Made by a program: the position numbers and the translations under genes
Source of the DNA: a virus
IMG/VR virus record: IMGVR_UViG_3300044630_005032
Location: 1-63,813 of that record
Length of the DNA: 63,813 nucleotides
Reading direction: 5' to 3' (one strand)
Part shown: positions 11,737-57,683 of the stretch, one piece after another
How positions within the stretch are numbered: position 1 is the stretch's first letter
Layout: every line of letters begins with the position of its first letter
The notes under the pieces: generated by a model
Seen by the model: the letters and a program-made list of their open reading frames with translations, nothing else
Databases searched by the model: none
What the model was told of the DNA's origin: nothing

Positions 11737-11889
11737 TCATGTCAGCCGAGGGGCTGCCAAAAAAGCCGCCACCACCAACACAGCCGCTGTGAACCACCCG
11801 GTAGGGTTGAACCACAGGAAGCACACAAACCACGCTGCCACAAGCAGCAGCAGTGCCATGGCGGCACGGTTGGCGGTGGGGTCATCCAT
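11737..11889 (-). CDS. Small two-helix membrane protein
   Basis: 50 residues read from the ATG at 11889 (MDDPTANRAAMALLLLVAAW ...). Two hydrophobic stretches (MALLLLVAAWFVCFLWF and FTAAVLVVAAFLAA) are separated by NPTGW, a helical hairpin. Downstream of 11925-12578 in the same leftward unit. Function unknown. Confidence 0.5.
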   Translation of the reverse strand: MDDPTANRAAMALLLLVAAWFVCFLWFNPTGWFTAAVLVVAAFLAAPRLT

Positions 11890-11924
11890 ACTAGAGCTTT
11901 CCAGCTATACCGAAAAACAGCTAT

Positions 11925-17296: not shown

Positions 17297-17586
17297 CAGC
17301 ATCACTTCAAGCCGTTAGGCCGGTCGGCAATGGCGATGGCTATGGCTATGGCGATGGCTATGGCCATGGCGATGGCGATGGCGATGGCTATGGCTATGGC
17401 TATGGCCATGGCGATGGCTATGGCTATGGCTATGGCTATGGCGATGGCGATGGCGATGGCTATGGCTATGGCTATGGCTATGGCTATGGCTATGGCCATG
17501 GCGATGGCTATGGCTATGGCGATGGCGATGGCGATGGCTATGGCTATGGCCATGGCACCGTTTCAACTGCATTCAGAAGGCGCTAG
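17293..17586 (+). CDS. GYGD-repeat protein
   Basis: 97 residues from the GTG at 17293. After VTASLQAVRPVGNGDG the protein is an alternation of Gly with Asp, Tyr or His (GDGYGYGDGYGHG), then GTVSTAFRRR. Encoded by a hexamer-like array of GGC(G/T/C)AT words. The GTGA overlap with the gene before and the normal C-terminus argue for a real, length-variable protein. Structural or adhesive roles are possible. Confidence 0.55.
   Translation: MTASLQAVRPVGNGDGYGYGDGYGHGDGDGDGYGYGYGHGDGYGYGYGYGDGDGDGYGYGYGYGYGYGHGDGYGYGDGDGDGYGYGHGTVSTAFRRR
17329..17556. repeat. GGCNAT short tandem array
   Basis: Over 220 bases of GGCTAT, GGCGAT and GGCCAT words in variable order. Every frame is open. Likely prone to length change by slippage. 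Confidence 0.9.
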
Positions 17587-24748: not shown

Positions 24749-25023
24749 CCGATCTAGTCCGCACCCTGCTGGCACGACGGCCCTATGTGAGTGAAGGCAC
24801 CCTGCTTGATTGCCTGGAGCTGGCCGAATGGTTGGATATGCGCATCCGGGCAGGCATTGTCCCGGAGATTACTACCGCTGAGATGATGAGCCGGTGGCAG
24901 TGCTCGCAGTCCACCGTGAGCAGGCGGATTGCGGCATTACGTGAACACCAGTTGATTGAGGTTACGGACCACCCAGGGCCCGGCGCCTACTGGGCGGTGT
25001 ATCGCGTGGGGCCGGTGGGATGA
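24745..25023 (+). CDS. Small winged-helix DNA-binding protein
   Basis: 92 residues from the ATG at 24745. ITTAEMMSRWQCSQSTVSRR, then IAALREHQLIEVTDHPGPGA and YWAVYRVG is a clear winged helix (two helices, recognition helix, wing). Coupled to tmk and to the large terminase. Could regulate the operon or assist packaging. Confidence 0.7.
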   Translation: MTDLVRTLLARRPYVSEGTLLDCLELAEWLDMRIRAGIVPEITTAEMMSRWQCSQSTVSRRIAALREHQLIEVTDHPGPGAYWAVYRVGPVG

Positions 25024-26474
25024 CCCCCCACCGCGCCCCTGACCCCTCCTCGCGCCTCGCCGTGCTGGAGCTGGAAAGCACCGCAGCGGCGCACATGCGT
25101 CTTGACATCCCCGCCACCCTCGCCCGCATCCGCGACGACCTCCACGGCGGGCAGGTTGAGCTGTTCGATGACACCACCACCCGTGAGATCGGCGTGGCCG
25201 CTGGCTACGGGGCAGGGAAGACCCTGGGAGCCTGTGCCAAAGCCTTTCAGCTCGCGGTGCTGAATCAGGGCTTTATCGGCTGCGTGCTGGAGCCAACTGG
25301 GCCCATGCTGCGGGACATCTGGATCAGGAAGTTTGATGCCTTCCTTGATCACTACGGCATCCCCTACACCTTCCGTGCATCGCCGCTCCCCGAGCACATC
25401 CTCCACCTACCTGATGGTGATACGCCCGTACTAGCCCGGAGCTTTGAGAACTTCAAGCGCATTGTCGGCCCCGACTGGGCATGGGCCCTTGTTGACGAGG
25501 TGGACACCGTTCAGGAGCAGATCGCCGCACGGGGTTACGAGAAGATCCTCGGCCGCATCCGGGTTGGCCATGTCAGCCAGCTTGTCTTCCTTTCCACCCC
25601 TGAAGGATTCGTCTGGCATTACAAGACCTTCGGCACCGTTGAAGCCCAGGCCGATCCTGGTAAGCGGTTGATCAGGATGCGCACGCAAGACAACCCACAC
25701 TTGCCCGAGGCTTACCTGGACAACCTGCGCACCCGATACACCAGCAATATGCTAAAGGCTTACATGGAAGGCATCTACATCAACCTGAAGAGTGGCCAGG
25801 TTTACGACCGCTTCAACCGTGATTATCACGTCAAGCCGCTACCTGATGGCCTACAGCTCACTGATCAGATCCTGATCGGCATCGATTTCAACGTAGGTAA
25901 TATGTCAGGCATCCTGCTAGTGGTCCGCAAGGGTATTGCCCACGCCTTTGGCGAGATCATGGGCGCCCATGACACCGATGACCTGTGCCGCAAGGTCCGC
26001 AAGCGATTCCCCGAGCGTTCGATCTGGGCCTATCCCGATGCCAGCGGCGCCAACCGCAGCACTAATGCCAGCCTGTCGGACATCGGGATCCTGAAGTCCT
26101 ACGGCTTTGCCAACTACGCCCCTGATGCCAATCCCCCGGTGCGCGATCGGGTGAACGTGGTGCAGGCTCTGCTGTTGAACGCCAAGGGTGAGACAAGGTT
26201 CTGGATCAGCCCAGAGTGCCCACGGCTGATCGAGGCCCTAGAGCGACAGCCCTACAACGAGCAGGGCGAGCCGGACAAGAAGACCGGCTACGACCATCCC
26301 AATGATGCCGTTGGCTACCCGCTGCATCGCCTGTTTGCTGCAGAGCTGGGCTACGGGCCCGGCGGCCCCATGCGGATCACCACCGCCACTTACGGCCACG
26401 GTTCTACCGCACTGCTGCAGCAGCCGGAGCCCCCACCACCCCGGCGGCGGTCCGCTATCCCCGGCTTCCGATGA
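25020..26474 (+). CDS. Terminase large subunit
   Basis: 484 residues. Walker A AGYGAGKT (61-68), Walker B ALVDEVD near 155-161, coupling motif FLSTPEG near 194. The RNase H-like nuclease follows with IGIDFNVGNMSG near 287, YPDASGA and DHPNDAVGY giving its acidic residues. Motor and nuclease that packages DNA into the prohead. Length is normal. ATGA-coupled to the sigma factor gene. Confidence 0.95.
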   Translation: MTPHRAPDPSSRLAVLELESTAAAHMRLDIPATLARIRDDLHGGQVELFDDTTTREIGVAAGYGAGKTLGACAKAFQLAVLNQGFIGCVLEPTGPMLRDIWIRKFDAFLDHYGIPYTFRASPLPEHILHLPDGDTPVLARSFENFKRIVGPDWAWALVDEVDTVQEQIAARGYEKILGRIRVGHVSQLVFLSTPEGFVWHYKTFGTVEAQADPGKRLIRMRTQDNPHLPEAYLDNLRTRYTSNMLKAYMEGIYINLKSGQVYDRFNRDYHVKPLPDGLQLTDQILIGIDFNVGNMSGILLVVRKGIAHAFGEIMGAHDTDDLCRKVRKRFPERSIWAYPDASGANRSTNASLSDIGILKSYGFANYAPDANPPVRDRVNVVQALLLNAKGETRFWISPECPRLIEALERQPYNEQGEPDKKTGYDHPNDAVGYPLHRLFAAELGYGPGGPMRITTATYGHGSTALLQQPEPPPPRRRSAIPGFR

Positions 26475-27385
26475 CTACCACTCTCACGCCACAACCCACC
26501 GACACCCTCCCGGAGCTCCCCAAGCGCAGGCGACGGGAGCGCAAAGGTGCGCCGCTGGAGCAACCGACCAAACCTGGAGCACCACCGCGCACTGAGCTAT
26601 CCGAGCGGCTGATTGTGGAAAACCAGGGGCTAGCCGAGGCAGCCGCTGCTAAGTGGTCCCGCCGCTGCTCCCGCCCTTTTGAAGACTTCATCGGCCCTGC
26701 CCTAGAGGGGCTGATCAACGGGTGCCGTCGCTACGACCCGCACAGGATCAACCCCGCCACAGATCGCCCCTATGCGCTCTCAACCTGCGTGTGCATGTTT
26801 ATCGAGGGGGCCATCAAACACCACATTCGGGACCACGGCTACGACGTGAAGATGCCATCGAAGTGGCGCGAGCACTACCCCAGGGTGCGGCGCCTGATAG
26901 CCGAAGGTCAGACCCTTGCGCAGATCGTTGAGGCCCTGCCCTGCTTCACCGAGGAGGAGATCACGGAGATGCTTGGCGGCATGGTCGGCACGGTGGAGCT
27001 GGAAGACGAGCTGACCCTGTTCAGTTTGCACCAGCCACAGGCCACCGAGGCAGCCCTTGCCCCCGCGCTCTATGCCCTCACCGATGCAGCGTTCGCCAAC
27101 CTGCGCCCCGCTGATCGTGGCCTCCTGGAGCGGTGGGCAGCTGATCCATTTAAACGGGCCTACCCCTCGGGGCCGATGATTCAGTTCCACAACCGTCTGA
27201 AGACGCAGCTGCGTGGACGCACCCTGGAGCAGTTCCGCCAGGGGCTCCTAGGGCTCGACGTTGCCACCATTGCCCCTGCACCCCGTGAGCGGCGCCCCCG
27301 CCAGCCCAGGCCCGCACCGGCCGAGGTGGTACAGCCGTCCCTGTTCGCCCGCCGCAAGCCGCATCCCAAGGCGGTGAAGCTCTAA
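26471..27385 (+). CDS. Phage-encoded sigma-70-family (group 3, SigF/SigB-like) sigma factor
   Basis: 304 residues. Residues about 42-135 fit sigma region 2: RLIVENQGLAEAAAAKWSRR (2.1), FEDFIGPALEGLINGCRRYD (core-binding DL..G..GL), LSTCVCMFIEGAIKHHIRDH (2.3/2.4). GYDVKMPSKWRE matches the start of region 3 (R.P). TLAQIVEALPCFTEEEITEM could be region 3. The expected region 4 HTH is not evident; the C-terminus ends in a basic Arg/Pro tail, so -35 contacts may be lost or divergent. Probably directs host polymerase core to late promoters. Nested between terminase and portal. Confidence 0.8.
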   Translation: MTTTLTPQPTDTLPELPKRRRRERKGAPLEQPTKPGAPPRTELSERLIVENQGLAEAAAAKWSRRCSRPFEDFIGPALEGLINGCRRYDPHRINPATDRPYALSTCVCMFIEGAIKHHIRDHGYDVKMPSKWREHYPRVRRLIAEGQTLAQIVEALPCFTEEEITEMLGGMVGTVELEDELTLFSLHQPQATEAALAPALYALTDAAFANLRPADRGLLERWAADPFKRAYPSGPMIQFHNRLKTQLRGRTLEQFRQGLLGLDVATIAPAPRERRPRQPRPAPAEVVQPSLFARRKPHPKAVKL

Positions 27386-27387
27386 GC

Positions 27388-27402
27388 GGAAAGCTCAGAT
27401 AC
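27388..27402 (+). promoter_or_regulatory. Late element before portal
   Basis: GGAAAGCTCAGATAC, 23 bases before the GTG of the portal gene. Core GGAAAGCT shared with the other late elements. Confidence 0.5.
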
Positions 27403-27424: not shown

Positions 27425-28939
27425 GTGCAATCTGAACATCCTGGAACCGACCCGAAGTTGCCATCGTTCCGGCATCCGATCTTGCGGGAGCACGCCGAGG
27501 ATCTGGAGCGAGCCTATGACGCCTGGTATTGCCTGAAGGGTGAGGCGACCAAGCGGAAGTATCTGCCGCCCGAACCAGCAGAACCACCGGCTGCCTATGA
27601 GGGAAGGCTGGGTCGTGCGGTGTTCGCCGATTTCTTCCGGGCTGGTGTCGAAGCCTTCGCAGGGGTGCTATCGCGCAGCAACCCAGTGAACCCACCGCCG
27701 ACCTTTGAGAAGGCGATGGACAACATTGATCTAGAGGGCAATAGCCTTGAGGCGTGGTGGCTCACCGTGGATGCCCTGTGCCTCCGCGATGGTGGGGTGC
27801 CGGTCCTGGTGGAGATGCCTGATGGTCAACCCACTGACGGGGCCAGCGAGGCTGCACTGAAGCGGCGCCCGTACCTGGTCAGCCGCACCCGTTCAACGTG
27901 CTTGAACTGGCGGACCGCCATCGTCAATTCGGTGGAGGTGGTGACCCGCTGCACATTCCTGGAATGGGCTGAGATTGATTCCCCCGATGGCGACTATGGG
28001 GTGATCTACGAGGAGCGCTACCGGGTGATTGAGGCAGGGAAGTGGACGCTGTACAAGTTGACCAAGCAGGCAGACGGCAGGCTGACTATTGGCCAGGTGG
28101 ACAAAGGCCAATACCTGGACGCCAGACAAAAACCGCTGCCGATCTGCCCGGTGGTCTGGTACCCAGCCGAGAAAGCCGGGTTCGGCAAAGGTGGGCAGCC
28201 ATTGCGGCAGGTGGTGGAGCACTGCTTCCAGCATTTTCGGAAGTCCAGCGATCTGGAGGAGAAGACCCACAAGTGCGCCATGCCGGTGCCGGTTGAGGAG
28301 GGTGGTATCCCAGTTGGGCCAGGCCAACCGGAAAGGCCTCTGGTTATCGGTCCCAATAGCGTCATCCGGCTGGAAAAAGGTGGGAAGTTCTATTGGTCAG
28401 AGCCCGAAGCCACATCCCTAGCCGAACAACGGGAACAGATCAAGGAAGTGGTTGAGCTGATCAATCAGCAGCTACTGGGATTCCTCAGTGGTGATAGCAA
28501 GATCACCAAGACTGCCACTCAGGCGCAACTGGAAGGCGGCAGGACGCAGGTGAGCATCAAAGCTATGGGCGAGCGCAAGAAAAGCGTGATGCAGTCCATC
28601 CTGGCGATCTGGTGCCTCTATACCGGGGAGGAGCTGCCTGTAGGCGCTGGCCTCACGATGGACGAGAACGCCTTTGTCCCGCCGCTCGATGCGCAGGGCG
28701 CCAAAGCGCTGATGGATTTAACCGGTGGTGAGCCGCTGATCAGCCAGGAGAGCGCGGTGGAGGAGCTGCAGCGCGGTGGCTTCAACCGGGCAACGAGCAG
28801 CGTGGAGGATGAGATGGAGCGGATCCGGCGCGAGCGGCCGACGCTGGGGGCGCCAACACCAGGGCGGAACGACACGACCACGCCGCTGGATATGAGCACA
28901 CCGCTGGATGAGGTGGAGCCGACGGTGGCGGAAAGCTAA
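27425..28939 (+). CDS. Portal protein
   Basis: 504 residues from a GTG. Matches the DUF4055-type portal pattern: GRLGRAVFADFFRAGVEAFA, a mid-region with NWRTAIV, PICPVVWYP, SSDLEEKTHKCAMPVPVEE and a long helix QREQIKEVVELINQQLLGFL. It forms the dodecameric ring for DNA entry. Follows the terminase as usual. Low-complexity acidic tail. Confidence 0.85.
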   Translation: MQSEHPGTDPKLPSFRHPILREHAEDLERAYDAWYCLKGEATKRKYLPPEPAEPPAAYEGRLGRAVFADFFRAGVEAFAGVLSRSNPVNPPPTFEKAMDNIDLEGNSLEAWWLTVDALCLRDGGVPVLVEMPDGQPTDGASEAALKRRPYLVSRTRSTCLNWRTAIVNSVEVVTRCTFLEWAEIDSPDGDYGVIYEERYRVIEAGKWTLYKLTKQADGRLTIGQVDKGQYLDARQKPLPICPVVWYPAEKAGFGKGGQPLRQVVEHCFQHFRKSSDLEEKTHKCAMPVPVEEGGIPVGPGQPERPLVIGPNSVIRLEKGGKFYWSEPEATSLAEQREQIKEVVELINQQLLGFLSGDSKITKTATQAQLEGGRTQVSIKAMGERKKSVMQSILAIWCLYTGEELPVGAGLTMDENAFVPPLDAQGAKALMDLTGGEPLISQESAVEELQRGGFNRATSSVEDEMERIRRERPTLGAPTPGRNDTTTPLDMSTPLDEVEPTVAES

Positions 28940-28942
28940 GCC
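28930..28942 (+). promoter_or_regulatory. Late element at the end of the portal gene
   Basis: GGAAAGCTAAGCC, overlapping the portal stop and 18 bases before the ATG at 28960. Confidence 0.45.
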
Positions 28943-28959
28943 GTAACCACAGAGTCACC

Positions 28960-33539: not shown

Positions 33540-33716
33540 TCACTTCGCCTTCATGCCCCCGCCCTTGGCAGGCTTGGGCTTCTTCGGCATGGCCTTTCCC
33601 TTGCCCTTGCCAGCCTTGCCCATTGCCATGCCCTTGCCTGCTTTGCCGTTGTACACGGGGTCACCGCTGACTGCCTGAGGTTTCCTGGAAACCTGGGCTA
33701 GATCGTGCGACGCCAT
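33540..33716 (-). CDS. Lys/Gly/Met-rich basic peptide
   Basis: 58 residues from the ATG at 33716: KAGKGMAMGKAGKGKGKAMP, then KKPKPAKGGGMKAK, very basic. Its ATG and the ATG of the rightward gene at 33715 share one CATG. Low complexity makes the call uncertain; such peptides are seen beside head genes. Confidence 0.4.
   Translation of the reverse strand: MASHDLAQVSRKPQAVSGDPVYNGKAGKGMAMGKAGKGKGKAMPKKPKPAKGGGMKAK
33679..33699 (+). promoter_or_regulatory. Late element variant
   Basis: GGTTTCCTGGAAACCTGGG is an imperfect late element (GGAAACCTGGG), here part of an inverted repeat GGTTTCC/GGAAACC, before the ATG at 33715. Confidence 0.35.
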
Positions 33717-37632: not shown

Positions 37633-37735
37633 AGTAGCCCAGCGACCACCGCCTTCCAGCCCACCACACGCGAGCCTGATACGGGCGCCGTGCGTTATGG
37701 GGACAGTGGGAAACGCCGCGAGGGTAAGAAGCCAT
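37472..37735 (-). CDS. AP2-like DNA-binding small protein
   Basis: 87 residues from the ATG at 37735. NARRPYQARVWWAGRRWSLG, then YFTSIQAAAQAVEDCYRQIE matches the AP2/integrase-type beta-sheet-plus-helix (G....LG.F.t...Aa.A) found in homing endonucleases and phage proteins. Its 3' part overlaps the T domain antisense by 161 bp. It is preceded by its own late element on the minus strand. Confidence 0.6.
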   Translation of the reverse strand: MASYPRGVSHCPHNARRPYQARVWWAGRRWSLGYFTSIQAAAQAVEDCYRQIERWAAMNLPPPMLALQHRERSAPTGSLPAADHPPA

Positions 37736-37750
37736 GCCCCAGCTTTCCCA
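37736..37750 (-). promoter_or_regulatory. Late element on the minus strand
   Basis: TGGGAAAGCTGGGGCATG with the ATG of the AP2-like gene directly attached, the same arrangement as at 41095. Behind it, GGCTTAAGCC (37767-37776) is a perfect palindrome. Confidence 0.55.
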
Positions 37751-39220: not shown

Positions 39221-39349
39221 GGCGGGCTGGCAGTGTTGCGGCAGGTTTCCGGGTGCGTCAGCCGCCCTGCTTGGATTTGGTCAGAACAAACGGCGTCAGC
39301 GATTCGACTACGCCTTCTTCGCAAAGGGCTTCAATGAACTTTGGGTTGT
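39220..39349. repeat. 130-bp direct repeat, copy 1
   Basis: Identical to 39603-39732 except one base (39228 T versus 39611 G). It covers the 3' end of the gene at 39258-39560 and 37 bases beyond. Confidence 0.95.
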
Positions 39350-39602: not shown

Positions 39603-39732
39603 TGGCGGGCGGGCAGTGTTGCGGCAGGTTTCCGGGTGCGTCAGCCGCCCTGCTTGGATTTGGTCAGAACAAACGGCGTCAGCGATTCGACTACGCCTTC
39701 TTCGCAAAGGGCTTCAATGAACTTTGGGTTGT
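39603..39732. repeat. 130-bp direct repeat, copy 2
   Basis: Spacing from copy 1 is 383 bp. The repeat ends in mid-gene, so it is not a simple gene duplication of uniform age. Confidence 0.95.
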
Positions 39733-41094: not shown

Positions 41095-41108
41095 GGGAAA
41101 GCTGAGGC
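41095..41108 (+). promoter_or_regulatory. Late element directly abutting a start codon
   Basis: GGGAAAGCTGAGGC with ATG at 41109 attached. If GGGAAAGCT is a -10, the mRNA would be leaderless. Confidence 0.55.
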
Positions 41109-41555
41109 ATGAGCCTGCCTACCACTGCACAGGAGCTGTACGACCTACTGGCGGGCGATGCGGAGGTCAGCGCAGCCTTAGGCGCGTACACGCCTCGCGG
41201 CCAGAGCCCTGTCCCCGCCATCGCCGTGGTGCGCCGCAATGAGCAACTACCCGAGGGGGTGGCCGTGGCTGGCCTGGAGGTGGTGATCCTGAACAACCCC
41301 GACTACAGCCCTGAACCGATGCTTACCGGGGAGACGGGGCTGAACCCACAGTTCCGGCTGTACGTGAGTGAGTGGTCACCCTCGACCGACTTGACGGCCC
41401 TGCAGGCGCTCACCCAGCGGATCATCAGCCTCCTGCCGGGCTGCCGTGCGGTGCCGATCGGTGGTGATGCGCCGGGGCAGGGGCTCGGGGTGCTGGATCA
41501 GTACGCCATCAGCTGGACAAACCCCACTCAGTACGTCGTGACACCGGAGAGCTGA
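41109..41555 (+). CDS. Putative tail terminator / minor tail protein
   Basis: 148 residues. AQELYDLLAGDAEVSAALGA, a beta core (VAGLEVVILNNPDYSPEPML) and TALQALTQRIISLLPGCRAV fit gpU-like tail-end proteins by layout. Directly upstream of the tape measure. Confidence 0.55.
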   Translation: MSLPTTAQELYDLLAGDAEVSAALGAYTPRGQSPVPAIAVVRRNEQLPEGVAVAGLEVVILNNPDYSPEPMLTGETGLNPQFRLYVSEWSPSTDLTALQALTQRIISLLPGCRAVPIGGDAPGQGLGVLDQYAISWTNPTQYVVTPES

Positions 41556-41556
41556 T

Positions 41557-44421
41557 ATGGCAGGGAATGAGTGGGTCGTTAAGGTCACCGCCGATGTAAA
41601 GGGTGTGCTCGATGCCTCGCGGCAGATCGGGCAGGCGGGGAAGCAAGCGGGGCAGAATTTCCAGGACGGGTTTAACGGGACCGACAAAACTCTCTCAGGC
41701 TTATCTACACAGCTTAGGGAGACGACAGGCGGAGTAAAAAGCTTTGGCGAATCACAACAAACCATCGTCAAAAATCAAGGGGATGTTAATTCCGTATTGG
41801 GTAAAGGCAATAGCATTCTGGGCAGCTTGACTGATGGTGTAAAGAGCTTTGCGCTGCAAGCTGGTTCGGTTCTTACGGTTGGCGCAGCGCTTCAGTTTGC
41901 TGGCAAGCAGATTATGGATCTTGACAACGCAAGCGCTGCGGTGCGGACCCTTGGCGTTGACTCAAAAGCACTTAGCAAAGAACTACTGAAGTTATCAACA
42001 GAGCTAGACGGTAACGTAAGTCGTGTTGAGCTGATGCAAGCATCTTACGATGTAGCATCAAGCGGCTTTACCAAAACCTCAGAGATTGTCGATATTCTGC
42101 GAGCTTCAGCACTAGGCGCTACCGGGGGATTCTCGGATCTTGCCACTGTAGCCGATGCTGTAACATCCGTCATCAATTCTTACGGGCTTGAAGCTTCAGA
42201 CGCTACGTCTATTGTAGATAGCTTTATCCAAACACAAAATGACGGCAAGATAACAGTTGCGCAATTTGGAAAGCAGATCGGTAACATTGCAGCCGTTGCG
42301 GCTGCAGCAAATATTCCCTTAAGCGAGCTAAGTGCTGCAATCGCCGACGCTACAGCAAAAGGAGTTCCTGTTGAGCAAACATTTACAGGACTTAGGCAAG
42401 CCATCAGTTCAATCATAAAACCTTCAGAACAAGCCAAGGATGAAGCAGAGAGGCTCGGAATAGAATACAACTTGACTGGCCTAAAAGCGCGTGGGTTCGC
42501 TGGATTCCTAGCCGATGTAGTTACAAAAAGCAAAGGTTCAGCTGATAGCATTGCAATCTTGACCGGTAGTGTAGAAGCCCAAGCTCCCATCCAGCAAATT
42601 GCAAACGATAAATTAAAAAATTACAACGAGTTCCTGGATAATCAAATCACGAAAACCGGCCAGGCCAAGGCAGCCGCTGAAATTGCTTCGGCAACCATTG
42701 TCGGTGGAATTGAGAAAATTACTAACGCATCTAGCAATCTTGTTACAGTATTGGGAGCATCTGGAGGAGGATCGGTAGGGGAATTTTTAAGTCGTCTTGC
42801 AACAGGCATTTCGCTCGTTCAAGCATTAACAGTGAAAGCCGTTGAAGCTGCCGGGGCCATTAAAAGCGTTTTTACTTTCACCCCACCAGCAAAGGCGGTT
42901 TACGATCTAAAAGAGGGGTTTGATAATCTTATTATATCTGGCGCAAAATGGATAACCTCACAACTTACTGGGACAACACAGCTAACGGTAGCGCAAGAGA
43001 AGCAAATCAAGGCAATAGCACAAGGAAACCAAGATCTTCTAGACCTTGCAAAAGCATATAACAAAGAGCAGCTAGAGCGACTTGAATACGATCAGAAGAT
43101 AGCGGATGCTCAGGGCAAGCTAGCCAAGGCGCAGTCTGACTCTCAGCTGCAAATTGGCCAGGCCAGCATTAACCTTGGCCAGGCATTGATCAGTCTAGAA
43201 GATTCCCGCTTTGGCATCATCAAAAGTCGCAACGACTTTGAGTTGAGAGATGCTCAAGAGCGCAAGGCAAGCGAACGAGAACTGGATGAAATTAAGCGCC
43301 GGGGTGAAGAGATAGAAGCTGCCGCCATGAGCGCCAAGTTTCAGGGATTGGTGGCACAGCAGGGACTAGAAAGAGATCTGCTGGCATTGAAGCAGCAACA
43401 GGCACTTACAGAGGCAAACAGTGAGGTAAGGAAAGCAAATGCAGAGTACAAAAAAGCAGAGCTTGAGGTAACAAAAGCAATCAACGAAAACAACAAAGAA
43501 GCGGAAGCCTCGGCAAGAGCAAACCTAGAGATCAAGGATATTGACAGGCAGATTGCCAATGAAAACCTAGGGATCCTTCAGCAAATCCAGCCTATACAGG
43601 GCAGGATCGCTGATGCCACCAACGAAGAGGCGATCAATAGGGCCCTTGCTGCCGCCGAGGCCAAGGGCCTACAGCTTGCCGCTGACGGCACGTTCAAAGC
43701 TGCCAAGGGCACCGCCGACCAGTTCAAGAGCGTGGGGGACAGCCTGAAGGTGCCGCTAGCGCAACAGGGTGCCTTTGCCCAGTTGGCCAAGGATGTGGGC
43801 CTCCGGGTGCGTGATACCGGCAGGGGCTACTACGAGATCGGACAGGCTCTGGGCAAGGGGGTGGGGCCCGCTGCGAACGACATCAAGGACTTCATGGGCG
43901 TGGCATCCAAGGCCACCGCTGCAGCCAAGGGCCAGGCGGCAGGGCTTAGCACCAACATGGGCAATGCAGCCAACGCTGCAGACAGGTTCTACCGCTCCCT
44001 GGCAGCAGCCTCCGGCTTGCCCCCTGCCCGATTCACGGGTGGCCCTGTGGATGCCGGCCAGACGTACCGCATCAACGACGGCCCCAGCGGCATGAGCCTG
44101 GGCCAGGAGGCGTTCCTATCAGCCTCTGGCGCCCTGTCCCTGATTAACCGGCCCGCCAACAGCCTGTGGTCGCCCCCCTCCAAGGGCACGGTGATCCCTG
44201 CTGCTATCACCAGCCGCCTGAAGGAATCCGGGGCCCTCGGCGGCGGTGCTGGTGTGCTGCGTGGTGGGTCCGATCCGGCAGTAGCCCATCTGGCCCTCGC
44301 GGTTGGAAACCTGAGCCAAGAAGTGGCCGAGCTGAGGCGAAAAGCGTGGAATGTGTCGTTCACGGGACGCTCCGATGGATCCGGCTTGAGGCTGGCGAAG
44401 ACGACAGCGCGGATGTTCTGA
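41557..44421 (+). CDS. Tail tape measure protein (TP901 family)
   Basis: 954 residues. Residues about 130-330 hold the TP901 core: AAVRTLGVDSKALSKELLKL, SYDVASSGFTKTSEIVDILR, AVTSVINSYGLEASDATSIV, ANIPLSELSAAIADATAKGV. Hydrophobic patches near 410-440, then a coiled coil near 500-680 (ERDLLALKQQQALTEANSEV). AT-richer in the middle. Length implies a tail of roughly 140 nm by the usual 1.5 angstrom per residue rule. The C-terminus is Gly-rich. Confidence 0.93.
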   Translation: MAGNEWVVKVTADVKGVLDASRQIGQAGKQAGQNFQDGFNGTDKTLSGLSTQLRETTGGVKSFGESQQTIVKNQGDVNSVLGKGNSILGSLTDGVKSFALQAGSVLTVGAALQFAGKQIMDLDNASAAVRTLGVDSKALSKELLKLSTELDGNVSRVELMQASYDVASSGFTKTSEIVDILRASALGATGGFSDLATVADAVTSVINSYGLEASDATSIVDSFIQTQNDGKITVAQFGKQIGNIAAVAAAANIPLSELSAAIADATAKGVPVEQTFTGLRQAISSIIKPSEQAKDEAERLGIEYNLTGLKARGFAGFLADVVTKSKGSADSIAILTGSVEAQAPIQQIANDKLKNYNEFLDNQITKTGQAKAAAEIASATIVGGIEKITNASSNLVTVLGASGGGSVGEFLSRLATGISLVQALTVKAVEAAGAIKSVFTFTPPAKAVYDLKEGFDNLIISGAKWITSQLTGTTQLTVAQEKQIKAIAQGNQDLLDLAKAYNKEQLERLEYDQKIADAQGKLAKAQSDSQLQIGQASINLGQALISLEDSRFGIIKSRNDFELRDAQERKASERELDEIKRRGEEIEAAAMSAKFQGLVAQQGLERDLLALKQQQALTEANSEVRKANAEYKKAELEVTKAINENNKEAEASARANLEIKDIDRQIANENLGILQQIQPIQGRIADATNEEAINRALAAAEAKGLQLAADGTFKAAKGTADQFKSVGDSLKVPLAQQGAFAQLAKDVGLRVRDTGRGYYEIGQALGKGVGPAANDIKDFMGVASKATAAAKGQAAGLSTNMGNAANAADRFYRSLAAASGLPPARFTGGPVDAGQTYRINDGPSGMSLGQEAFLSASGALSLINRPANSLWSPPSKGTVIPAAITSRLKESGALGGGAGVLRGGSDPAVAHLALAVGNLSQEVAELRRKAWNVSFTGRSDGSGLRLAKTTARMF

Positions 44422-48591: not shown

Positions 48592-48606
48592 GGGAAAACT
48601 GAAGCA
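48592..48606 (+). promoter_or_regulatory. Late element
   Basis: GGGAAAACTGAAGCA, 14 bases before the ATG at 48621. Confidence 0.5.
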
Positions 48607-49066: not shown

Positions 49067-49080
49067 GGGAAAGCTCCTGT
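49067..49080 (+). promoter_or_regulatory. Late element
   Basis: GGGAAAGCTCCTGT, 14 bases before the ATG at 49095. Confidence 0.4.
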
Positions 49081-49094
49081 AAGCGGTTGCTGCA

Positions 49095-50472: not shown

Positions 50473-50484
50473 GGAAAGCTGCGC
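50473..50484 (+). promoter_or_regulatory. Late element before the scaffold gene
   Basis: GGAAAGCTGCGC, 34 bases before the ATG at 50518. Confidence 0.4.
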
Positions 50485-50498
50485 TGTAGTTGCTCGCG

Positions 50499-52973: not shown

Positions 52974-53222
52974 ATGAACATTTCGGTAGGCGTTGGCGTT
53001 GACCTGGAGCAGCTGCAGCAGGCCGTCAACGAGCCAGGTGAACCCCAGCAATCAGCGGCTGAGCCCGAGCACCAGGAGCCCGTTCAGGAGGCTGCTGAGC
53101 AGGCCACCGAAGAAGCGGTGGCGTGCCCCACCCCAAAGCGCAAGAGAGCGCGGGTGACAGGCGGGCGGTTTGCGGCTGACGACCCGTCCACCGCTGCAAA
53201 TGAGGCGTGGTCGGAAAGCTGA
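52974..53222 (+). CDS. Small acidic/basic unknown protein
   Basis: 82 residues from the ATG at 52974 with GGAGG nine bases upstream. Glu/Gln/Ala-rich middle (EHQEPVQEAAEQATEEAVAC) and a basic PKRKRARVTGGRFAA segment. Function unknown. Confidence 0.55.
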   Translation: MNISVGVGVDLEQLQQAVNEPGEPQQSAAEPEHQEPVQEAAEQATEEAVACPTPKRKRARVTGGRFAADDPSTAANEAWSES

Positions 53223-53226
53223 GGCA
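53212..53226 (+). promoter_or_regulatory. Late element
   Basis: CGGAAAGCTGAGGCA overlapping the previous stop, 44 bases before the ATG at 53271, which also has AGGAG upstream. Confidence 0.5.
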
Positions 53227-56834: not shown

Positions 56835-56849
56835 GGGAAAACTGAGGCA
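56835..56849 (+). promoter_or_regulatory. Late element before the lysis genes
   Basis: GGGAAAACTGAGGCA, 14 bases before the ATG at 56864. Confidence 0.55.
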
Positions 56850-57641: not shown

Positions 57642-57668
57642 GGCACTAGGCGTGTGCCTCAGCTTGCC

Positions 57669-57683
57669 GGGAAACCTGGGGGA
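57669..57683 (+). promoter_or_regulatory. Late element before the peptidase
   Basis: GGGAAACCTGGGGGA, 15 bases before the ATG at 57699; supports that ATG over the GTG at 57654. Confidence 0.4.

Follow-up and report, generated by a model that had tools for sequence, protein, structure and literature searches.

Sigma factors of the SigF type encoded right after the large terminase gene (terL) are already known in cyanophages: ORF003 of the Prochlorococcus siphovirus P-SS2, a type III (group 3) sigma factor, was published in 2009, in a paper that did not test its function (PMC2784084), and the corresponding genes of S-CBS2 and S-CRES1-3 (PHROG 36098) are annotated likewise. An earlier note on the DNA studied here, which knew of no well-described sigma factor of this type in cyanophage-like genomes, was mistaken on this point, but the mechanism of these proteins is not described in the accessible literature. 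Their cellular counterparts, the group 3 factors SigB and SigF (8x6g; PRK07408), combine GG-rich -10 recognition with a region 4 and a -35 element. Because SigB reads its GGGWAW -10 box as double-stranded DNA through sigma2 and sigma3 together (PMC11156646), a protein consisting of sigma2 and sigma3 could read a GG-rich -10 element without region 4. A sigma factor that has sigma2 and no sigma4 is known from phage T4, whose gp55 carries a C-terminal clamp motif preceded by a linker that is divergent and not constant in length (PMC2988020) and, in a system with gp45 and gp33, serves late promoters that have only a -10-like element (PMC2988020, PMC7892883). The consensus for binding the bacterial beta clamp is Q-L-x-L-F, usually near the C-terminus (PMC4549789). 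In the openly accessible literature (most subscription journals lie outside it), we found neither a clamp-binding phage sigma factor outside the T4-like phages nor a published late promoter in these siphophages.

The stretch analysed here (the window, 63,813 nt of a viral record) contains one detectable sigma gene, which starts with ATG, shares an ATGA with the end of terL and lies 39 bp ahead of the portal gene (phrog_145, E 5e-69; Table 1). The gene had been described as locked to terL, which is accurate for the window but not general: among relatives the junction varies, and the upstream neighbors are TerLs with little or no detectable mutual similarity, sometimes with one or several additional ORFs in between. 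The portal gene directly behind it, also pointed out earlier, is constant, and the sigma-portal spacing stays at ~40-50 bp in all relatives where the junction was read. The dissimilar TerLs of otherwise similar phages (the window, L006, L007, L014, L016 and L022) have the appearance of a module swap beside a constant sigma-portal pair. Close relatives of the window sigma occur in more than 60 viral contigs. A contig from a Cyanobium metagenome bin (L079, 94% identity) is the nearest genome match and points to a (freshwater) picocyanobacterium as the probable host, an assignment that is suggestive only.

Several further features accompany this gene family and the window. Sigma relatives with a longer N-terminus carry, in another frame across the extension, a conserved 73-aa ORF (e.g., MPSLTLPKAPLTQLRGKPVAGTWRLRQ...); the window lacks the extension, and a PHROG search with the L031 copy of the ORF returned no match. 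Short sigma-like ORFs (~170-220 aa) akin to the window family are present in many picocyanobacterial genomes (e.g., G018:C15:13522-13947) and are possibly prophage remnants. The window also holds an array of ~38 copies of the hexamer GGCTAT at positions 17326-17556.

Profile searches bear out the claimed SigF/SigB-like region 2, which is closest to that of cyanobacterial SigF. The window protein matched phrog_36098 (E 2e-14), phrog_351 (E 1e-13) and, over residues 39-145, the NCBIfam SigF model PRK07408 (E 5e-14, with a score of 52.6 bits that lies well under the curated cut-off of 261), and the family profile matched S. aureus SigB in the PDB (8x6g_H, E 1.3e-14). A Pfam search with the window protein gave no match, and Sigma70_r2 was matched by 18 of the 29 aligned relatives. 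An AlphaFold2 model (29 sequences, mean pLDDT 65.5) has a disordered N-terminus, region 2 helices at residues 42-50, 52-66, 70-87 and 103-121, region 3-like helices at 130-144, 149-155 and 161-170, and a second helical domain at 193-258 that precedes a low-confidence linker and tail; a fold search with the whole model returned sigma factors (E ~3e-4). Only the start of region 3 had been recognized earlier; we infer its presence from the model, in which it appears complete. By our own reading of the alignments, the SigB -10 contacts R74 and R100 correspond to R87 and R120 of the window protein (two of the six SigB contacts tested) and SigB R97 corresponds to H117, all three invariant in the family alignment.

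In line with the earlier note, neither sequence and profile comparisons nor fold searches detect a region 4. NCBIfam, PHROG and SigB/SigA matches stop at about the end of region 3, with a few weak PDB matches (e.g., to FliA) extending further. The full-length profile alignment to SigF does span residues 186-264 but is driven by regions 2 and 3; the isolated 186-264 domain aligned to 13 cyanobacterial SigF-like proteins (hhalign) no better than column-shuffled controls, and its predicted fold had no match in the PDB (best E 3.5). We therefore rejected this domain as a recognizable region 4, although it could be a region 4 that has diverged beyond recognition. The window sigma shares region 2 homology with group 3 and, with gp55, a sigma2 without recognizable sigma4. 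We do not class it as a strict member of the SigF family, because region 4 is not recognizable and its score is under the curated cut-off. The unrecognizable region 4 and the non-standard C-terminal domain would suit a protein whose binding to core polymerase serves chiefly to shut down host transcription instead of late initiation. Against this stand the conservation of regions 2 and 3, including the invariant R87 and R120, and a gene position and motif distribution (see below) that fit a late initiator, and we regard such a blocking role as very improbable.

What may stand in for region 4 lies at the C-terminus (...EVVQPSLFARRKPHPKAVKL), where the pentapeptide QPSLF, within the peptide EVVQPSLFARRK, follows a Pro/Arg linker and resembles the Q-x-x-L-F type motif of beta-clamp-binding proteins. 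The suggestion that the protein depends on something other than region 4 is supported by this putative clamp-binding motif. Almost every full-length relative has QPSLF, the exceptions being three with QPSLL and one with QSSLF, and the preceding linker is variable. Of the 374 window ORFs with 60 aa or more, the sigma alone shows Q.[SD]LF within 25 residues of its C-terminus, a pattern that shuffled tails yield at ~3e-5. In the S-CRES/S-CBS2 lineage (~25-30% identical), the last residues are QGSLF or QPSLF, and in the sigma of L205 (34% identical, with the same terL-sigma-portal order) they are QLDLF. The annotated SigF gene of S-CBS2 (L063:9010-9630, GenBank GU936714 gp077) stops early compared with its relatives, and the conserved C-terminus, LQGSLF included, is encoded past that point in the +1 frame, which we attribute to a frameshift or sequencing error in the record. 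A fourth, short lineage behind terL (L216-L226, ~230 aa) ends right after region 3 and has QLSLP or QLVLP near its N-terminus, which we take to be akin to the hexapeptide form of the clamp motif. The sigmas of the PSS2 lineage and of L214, which are of the same type, have no recognizable clamp motif, and tethering is thus not universal. No DnaN-type clamp was found in the window or its relatives; the candidate host encodes one, to which QPSLF may bind, and its DnaE has QGNLF at residue 930, a position that fits an internal clamp motif. S-H1, a cyanophage without this sigma, encodes a DnaN-type clamp of its own (L066:4317-5366) two genes before the terminase.

The same region admits another explanation, namely that the protein is a conventional SigF-type late sigma without clamp coupling, in which GG promoters are read by regions 2 and 3 (perhaps helped by a diverged region 4) and QPSLF binds another partner or is incidental. 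SigB-type -10 reading requires only sigma2 and sigma3 (PMC11156646), PSS2-type relatives retain the gene and its place without the clamp motif, and in the window family conservation extends just as strongly to the basic residues behind QPSLF, which leaves room for a different contact made by the tail as a whole. However, the same class of pentapeptide occurs at the C-terminus of three diverged lineages whose tails are otherwise different, and the motif is constant where the linker before it varies, for which reasons we consider the uncoupled alternative unlikely.

A candidate for the sequence that the sigma would read emerged from the sigma-portal gap, which in 14 aligned phages contains a conserved block with the motif GGAAAnCT-N4-YA, repeated through the late region. 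Exact GGAAAGCT is found 10 times in the window versus 2.5 expected (0 of 100 shuffles), and the exact motif with YA occurs 6 times in the 64-kb window as against 7 times in the 3.5 Mb host bin. We used a stricter matrix (threshold 14), trained only on the divergent relatives G005-G007, because an initial iterated one had slid toward looser sites and matched control fragments as well. It found 17 sites in the window versus 0.6 with permuted columns; the counts were 12-17 in G001-G003 and 0-1 in the cyanophages S-H1 and KBS-S-2A, neither of which has this sigma. Twelve of 18 sites lie in called non-coding DNA, with a start codon mostly 13 or 26-30 nt downstream; a few strong sites fall inside genes or outside the late region. 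Across five contigs (G000, G001, G003, G005 and G006), which are related and whose counts are thus not independent, a single site precedes the sigma-portal gap (88 kb) and 73 lie from the gap onward (176 kb); G002 and G007 were excluded from this count, as their late genes appear to cross contig ends. An A is present at +13 in 19 of 32 sites, with a pyrimidine-A step 12-13 nt past the first G, and no conserved block was seen at the -35 position, where a group 3 factor with a -35-reading region 4 would be expected to make contact.

Other readings of the repeats were weighed. Searching with the 11-mer GCGGAAAGCTC and allowing two mismatches gave no excess, the enrichment being in the shorter core, and a role in ribosome binding fits poorly: Some sites are 13 nt before an ATG but most are more distant, and at 53213 the start codon has a separate AGGAG closer to it. 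The repeats might also be operator or activator boxes of another phage regulator, with the sigma acting elsewhere, as two site pairs in the window form back-to-back inverted repeats (one of them AGGTTTCC-T-GGAAACCT) and similar pairs occur in relatives. Most sites, however, are single and directional, the pyrimidine-A step at a fixed distance fits a start site, and the GGnAnnCT core is present in a distant phage with a related sigma and lacking in the two control phages without it, making this explanation decidedly improbable. The strongly enriched GGAAAnCT may be the -10 element of promoters used by the window sigma, which would agree with the GG-rich -10 and the late-gene role proposed in the earlier note.

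The evidence for this core in the distant phage came from a de novo search of late upstream regions of S-CRES1, which returned GGnAnnCTA with a score of 66 (20-28 in shuffles). The resulting matrix found 42 sites in S-CBS2 versus 8.6, some of them inside a tandem repeat, and 14 matches in PSS2, which were not above controls and were all on the plus strand. Applied to the window, it gave no excess of sites, and the reverse application was weak; the window and S-CRES1 motifs have the GGnAnnCT core alone in common. The sigma-portal gap of L205 contains GGAAAACT-GAATT-A.

Table 1. Features of the sigma locus, candidate late promoters in the window, and loci of the 73-aa ORF in relatives.
Feature	Coordinates	Strand	Evidence
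Large terminase (terL)	25020..26474	+	Profile match; shares ATGA with sigma start
SigF/SigB-related phage sigma factor, 304 aa	26471..27385	+	PHROG, NCBIfam and PDB profile matches
Sigma region 2, residues 42-121, core-binding and -10-reading helices (predicted)	26594..26833	+	HMM matches; AlphaFold2 helices
Sigma region 3-like helices, residues 130-170	26858..26980	+	AlphaFold2 model; full-length profile alignment to SigF
C-terminal four-helix domain, residues 186-264, not recognizable as region 4	27026..27262	+	
Pro/Arg-rich linker, residues 265-287, variable, low model confidence	27263..27331	+	
QPSLF, putative beta-clamp-binding pentapeptide, residues 288-292	27332..27346	+	Near-invariant in relatives
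Basic tail, residues 293-304 (...RKPHPKAVKL), conserved	27347..27382	+	
Portal protein	27425..28939	+	phrog_145 match
Strong motif site, outlier in early region	11889..11902	-	Matrix
Candidate late promoter GGAAAGCT-CAGATA, sigma-portal gap, first of late set	27388..27401	+	Block conserved in 14 aligned phages
Candidate late promoter, overlaps portal 3' end	28930..28943	+	Matrix
Candidate late promoter, back-to-back pair with 33687..33700	33672..33685	-	Matrix
Candidate late promoter, back-to-back pair with 33672..33685	33687..33700	+	Matrix
Candidate late promoter	37735..37748	-	Matrix
Candidate late promoter	39237..39250	-	Matrix
Candidate late promoter	39620..39633	-	Matrix
Candidate late promoter before 41109-41555 and tape measure gene (41557)	41096..41109	+	
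Candidate late promoter (uncertain), within tape measure gene 3' end	44305..44318	+	Matrix
Candidate late promoter	48593..48606	+	Matrix
Candidate late promoter	49068..49081	+	Matrix
Candidate late promoter upstream of 50518 and major head protein gene (51489)	50473..50486	+	
Candidate late promoter	53213..53226	+	Matrix
Candidate late promoter	56836..56849	+	Matrix
Candidate late promoter, back-to-back pair with 57670..57683	57655..57668	-	Matrix
Candidate late promoter, back-to-back pair with 57655..57668	57670..57683	+	Matrix
73-aa ORF across the N-terminal extension of sigma relatives	L031:5655-5876, L016:2126-2347, L037:7846-8067, L042:7795-8016		

The reading that we favor, and hold with moderate confidence, is that the window sigma is a late factor of the sigma2-sigma3 type, tethered to the host clamp, that recognizes GG promoters with only a -10 element and resembles T4 gp55 in function. 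Region 2, the undetectable region 4, the conservation of the C-terminal motif, and the promoter-like motif with its position are supported directly by the sequences. Under this model, a promoter of a different class would drive the sigma gene together with the terminase genes. The sigma would bind the core of the host RNA polymerase and guide it to promoters that have only a -10 element, GGAAAnCT-N4-Y-A(+1); the first of these would lie just behind the sigma gene and the others before virion genes. Contacts to a -35 element would be replaced, at least in part, by the C-terminal QPSLF on its flexible linker, which would bind the DNA-loaded beta clamp of the host and supply part of the anchoring that region 4 normally provides; late transcription would then be favored on replicating phage DNA, as it is with T4 gp55 and gp45.

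The resemblance to the T4 system lies in a sigma2 without sigma4, a C-terminal clamp motif (putative in its binding here) after a variable linker, and late promoters (candidates here) with only a -10-like element. In contrast to gp55, the window protein has regions 2 and 3 of the SigF/SigB type, a bacterial-type QxxLF motif and a different promoter sequence, and since no phage-encoded DnaN-type counterpart of gp45 was found and clamp binding is putative, we do not class it as gp55-type. Among the cyanophage proteins, P-SS2 ORF003 is likewise of the SigF type (~32% identity over 111 residues) but is 213 aa long, lacks the clamp motif and is not followed by an annotated portal gene. The sigmas of S-CBS2 and S-CRES1-3 (~30% identity in region 2) share the position after terL, end in QGSLF and come from genomes with a GGnAnnCTA late motif, but have another C-terminal domain and are followed by a primase gene instead of portal. 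In S-CBS2 and S-CRES1 there is, in addition, an RpoD-like sigma.

Extending the model beyond the window, we judge it an evenly balanced question whether several lineages of cyanobacterial siphophages hook a region-4-less SigF-type sigma to the host beta clamp, thereby coupling late transcription to replication through -10-only GGnAnnCT promoters (the first of them behind the sigma gene in the window's family), in a manner analogous to but separate from gp55, gp33 and gp45 of T4. By this analogy, our results suggest that late transcription in this phage is tied to DNA replication as in T4, with different parts, and the window sigma appears to activate the virion genes from a GG-rich late promoter. 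If this is true, replication-coupled late transcription would have arisen, or been kept, in a different group of phages by means of the host clamp and a different class of sigma factor, and the window sigma would offer a minimal, testable case of a sigma factor that works without region 4, alongside a specific late-promoter candidate in a cyanophage group that has been little studied.
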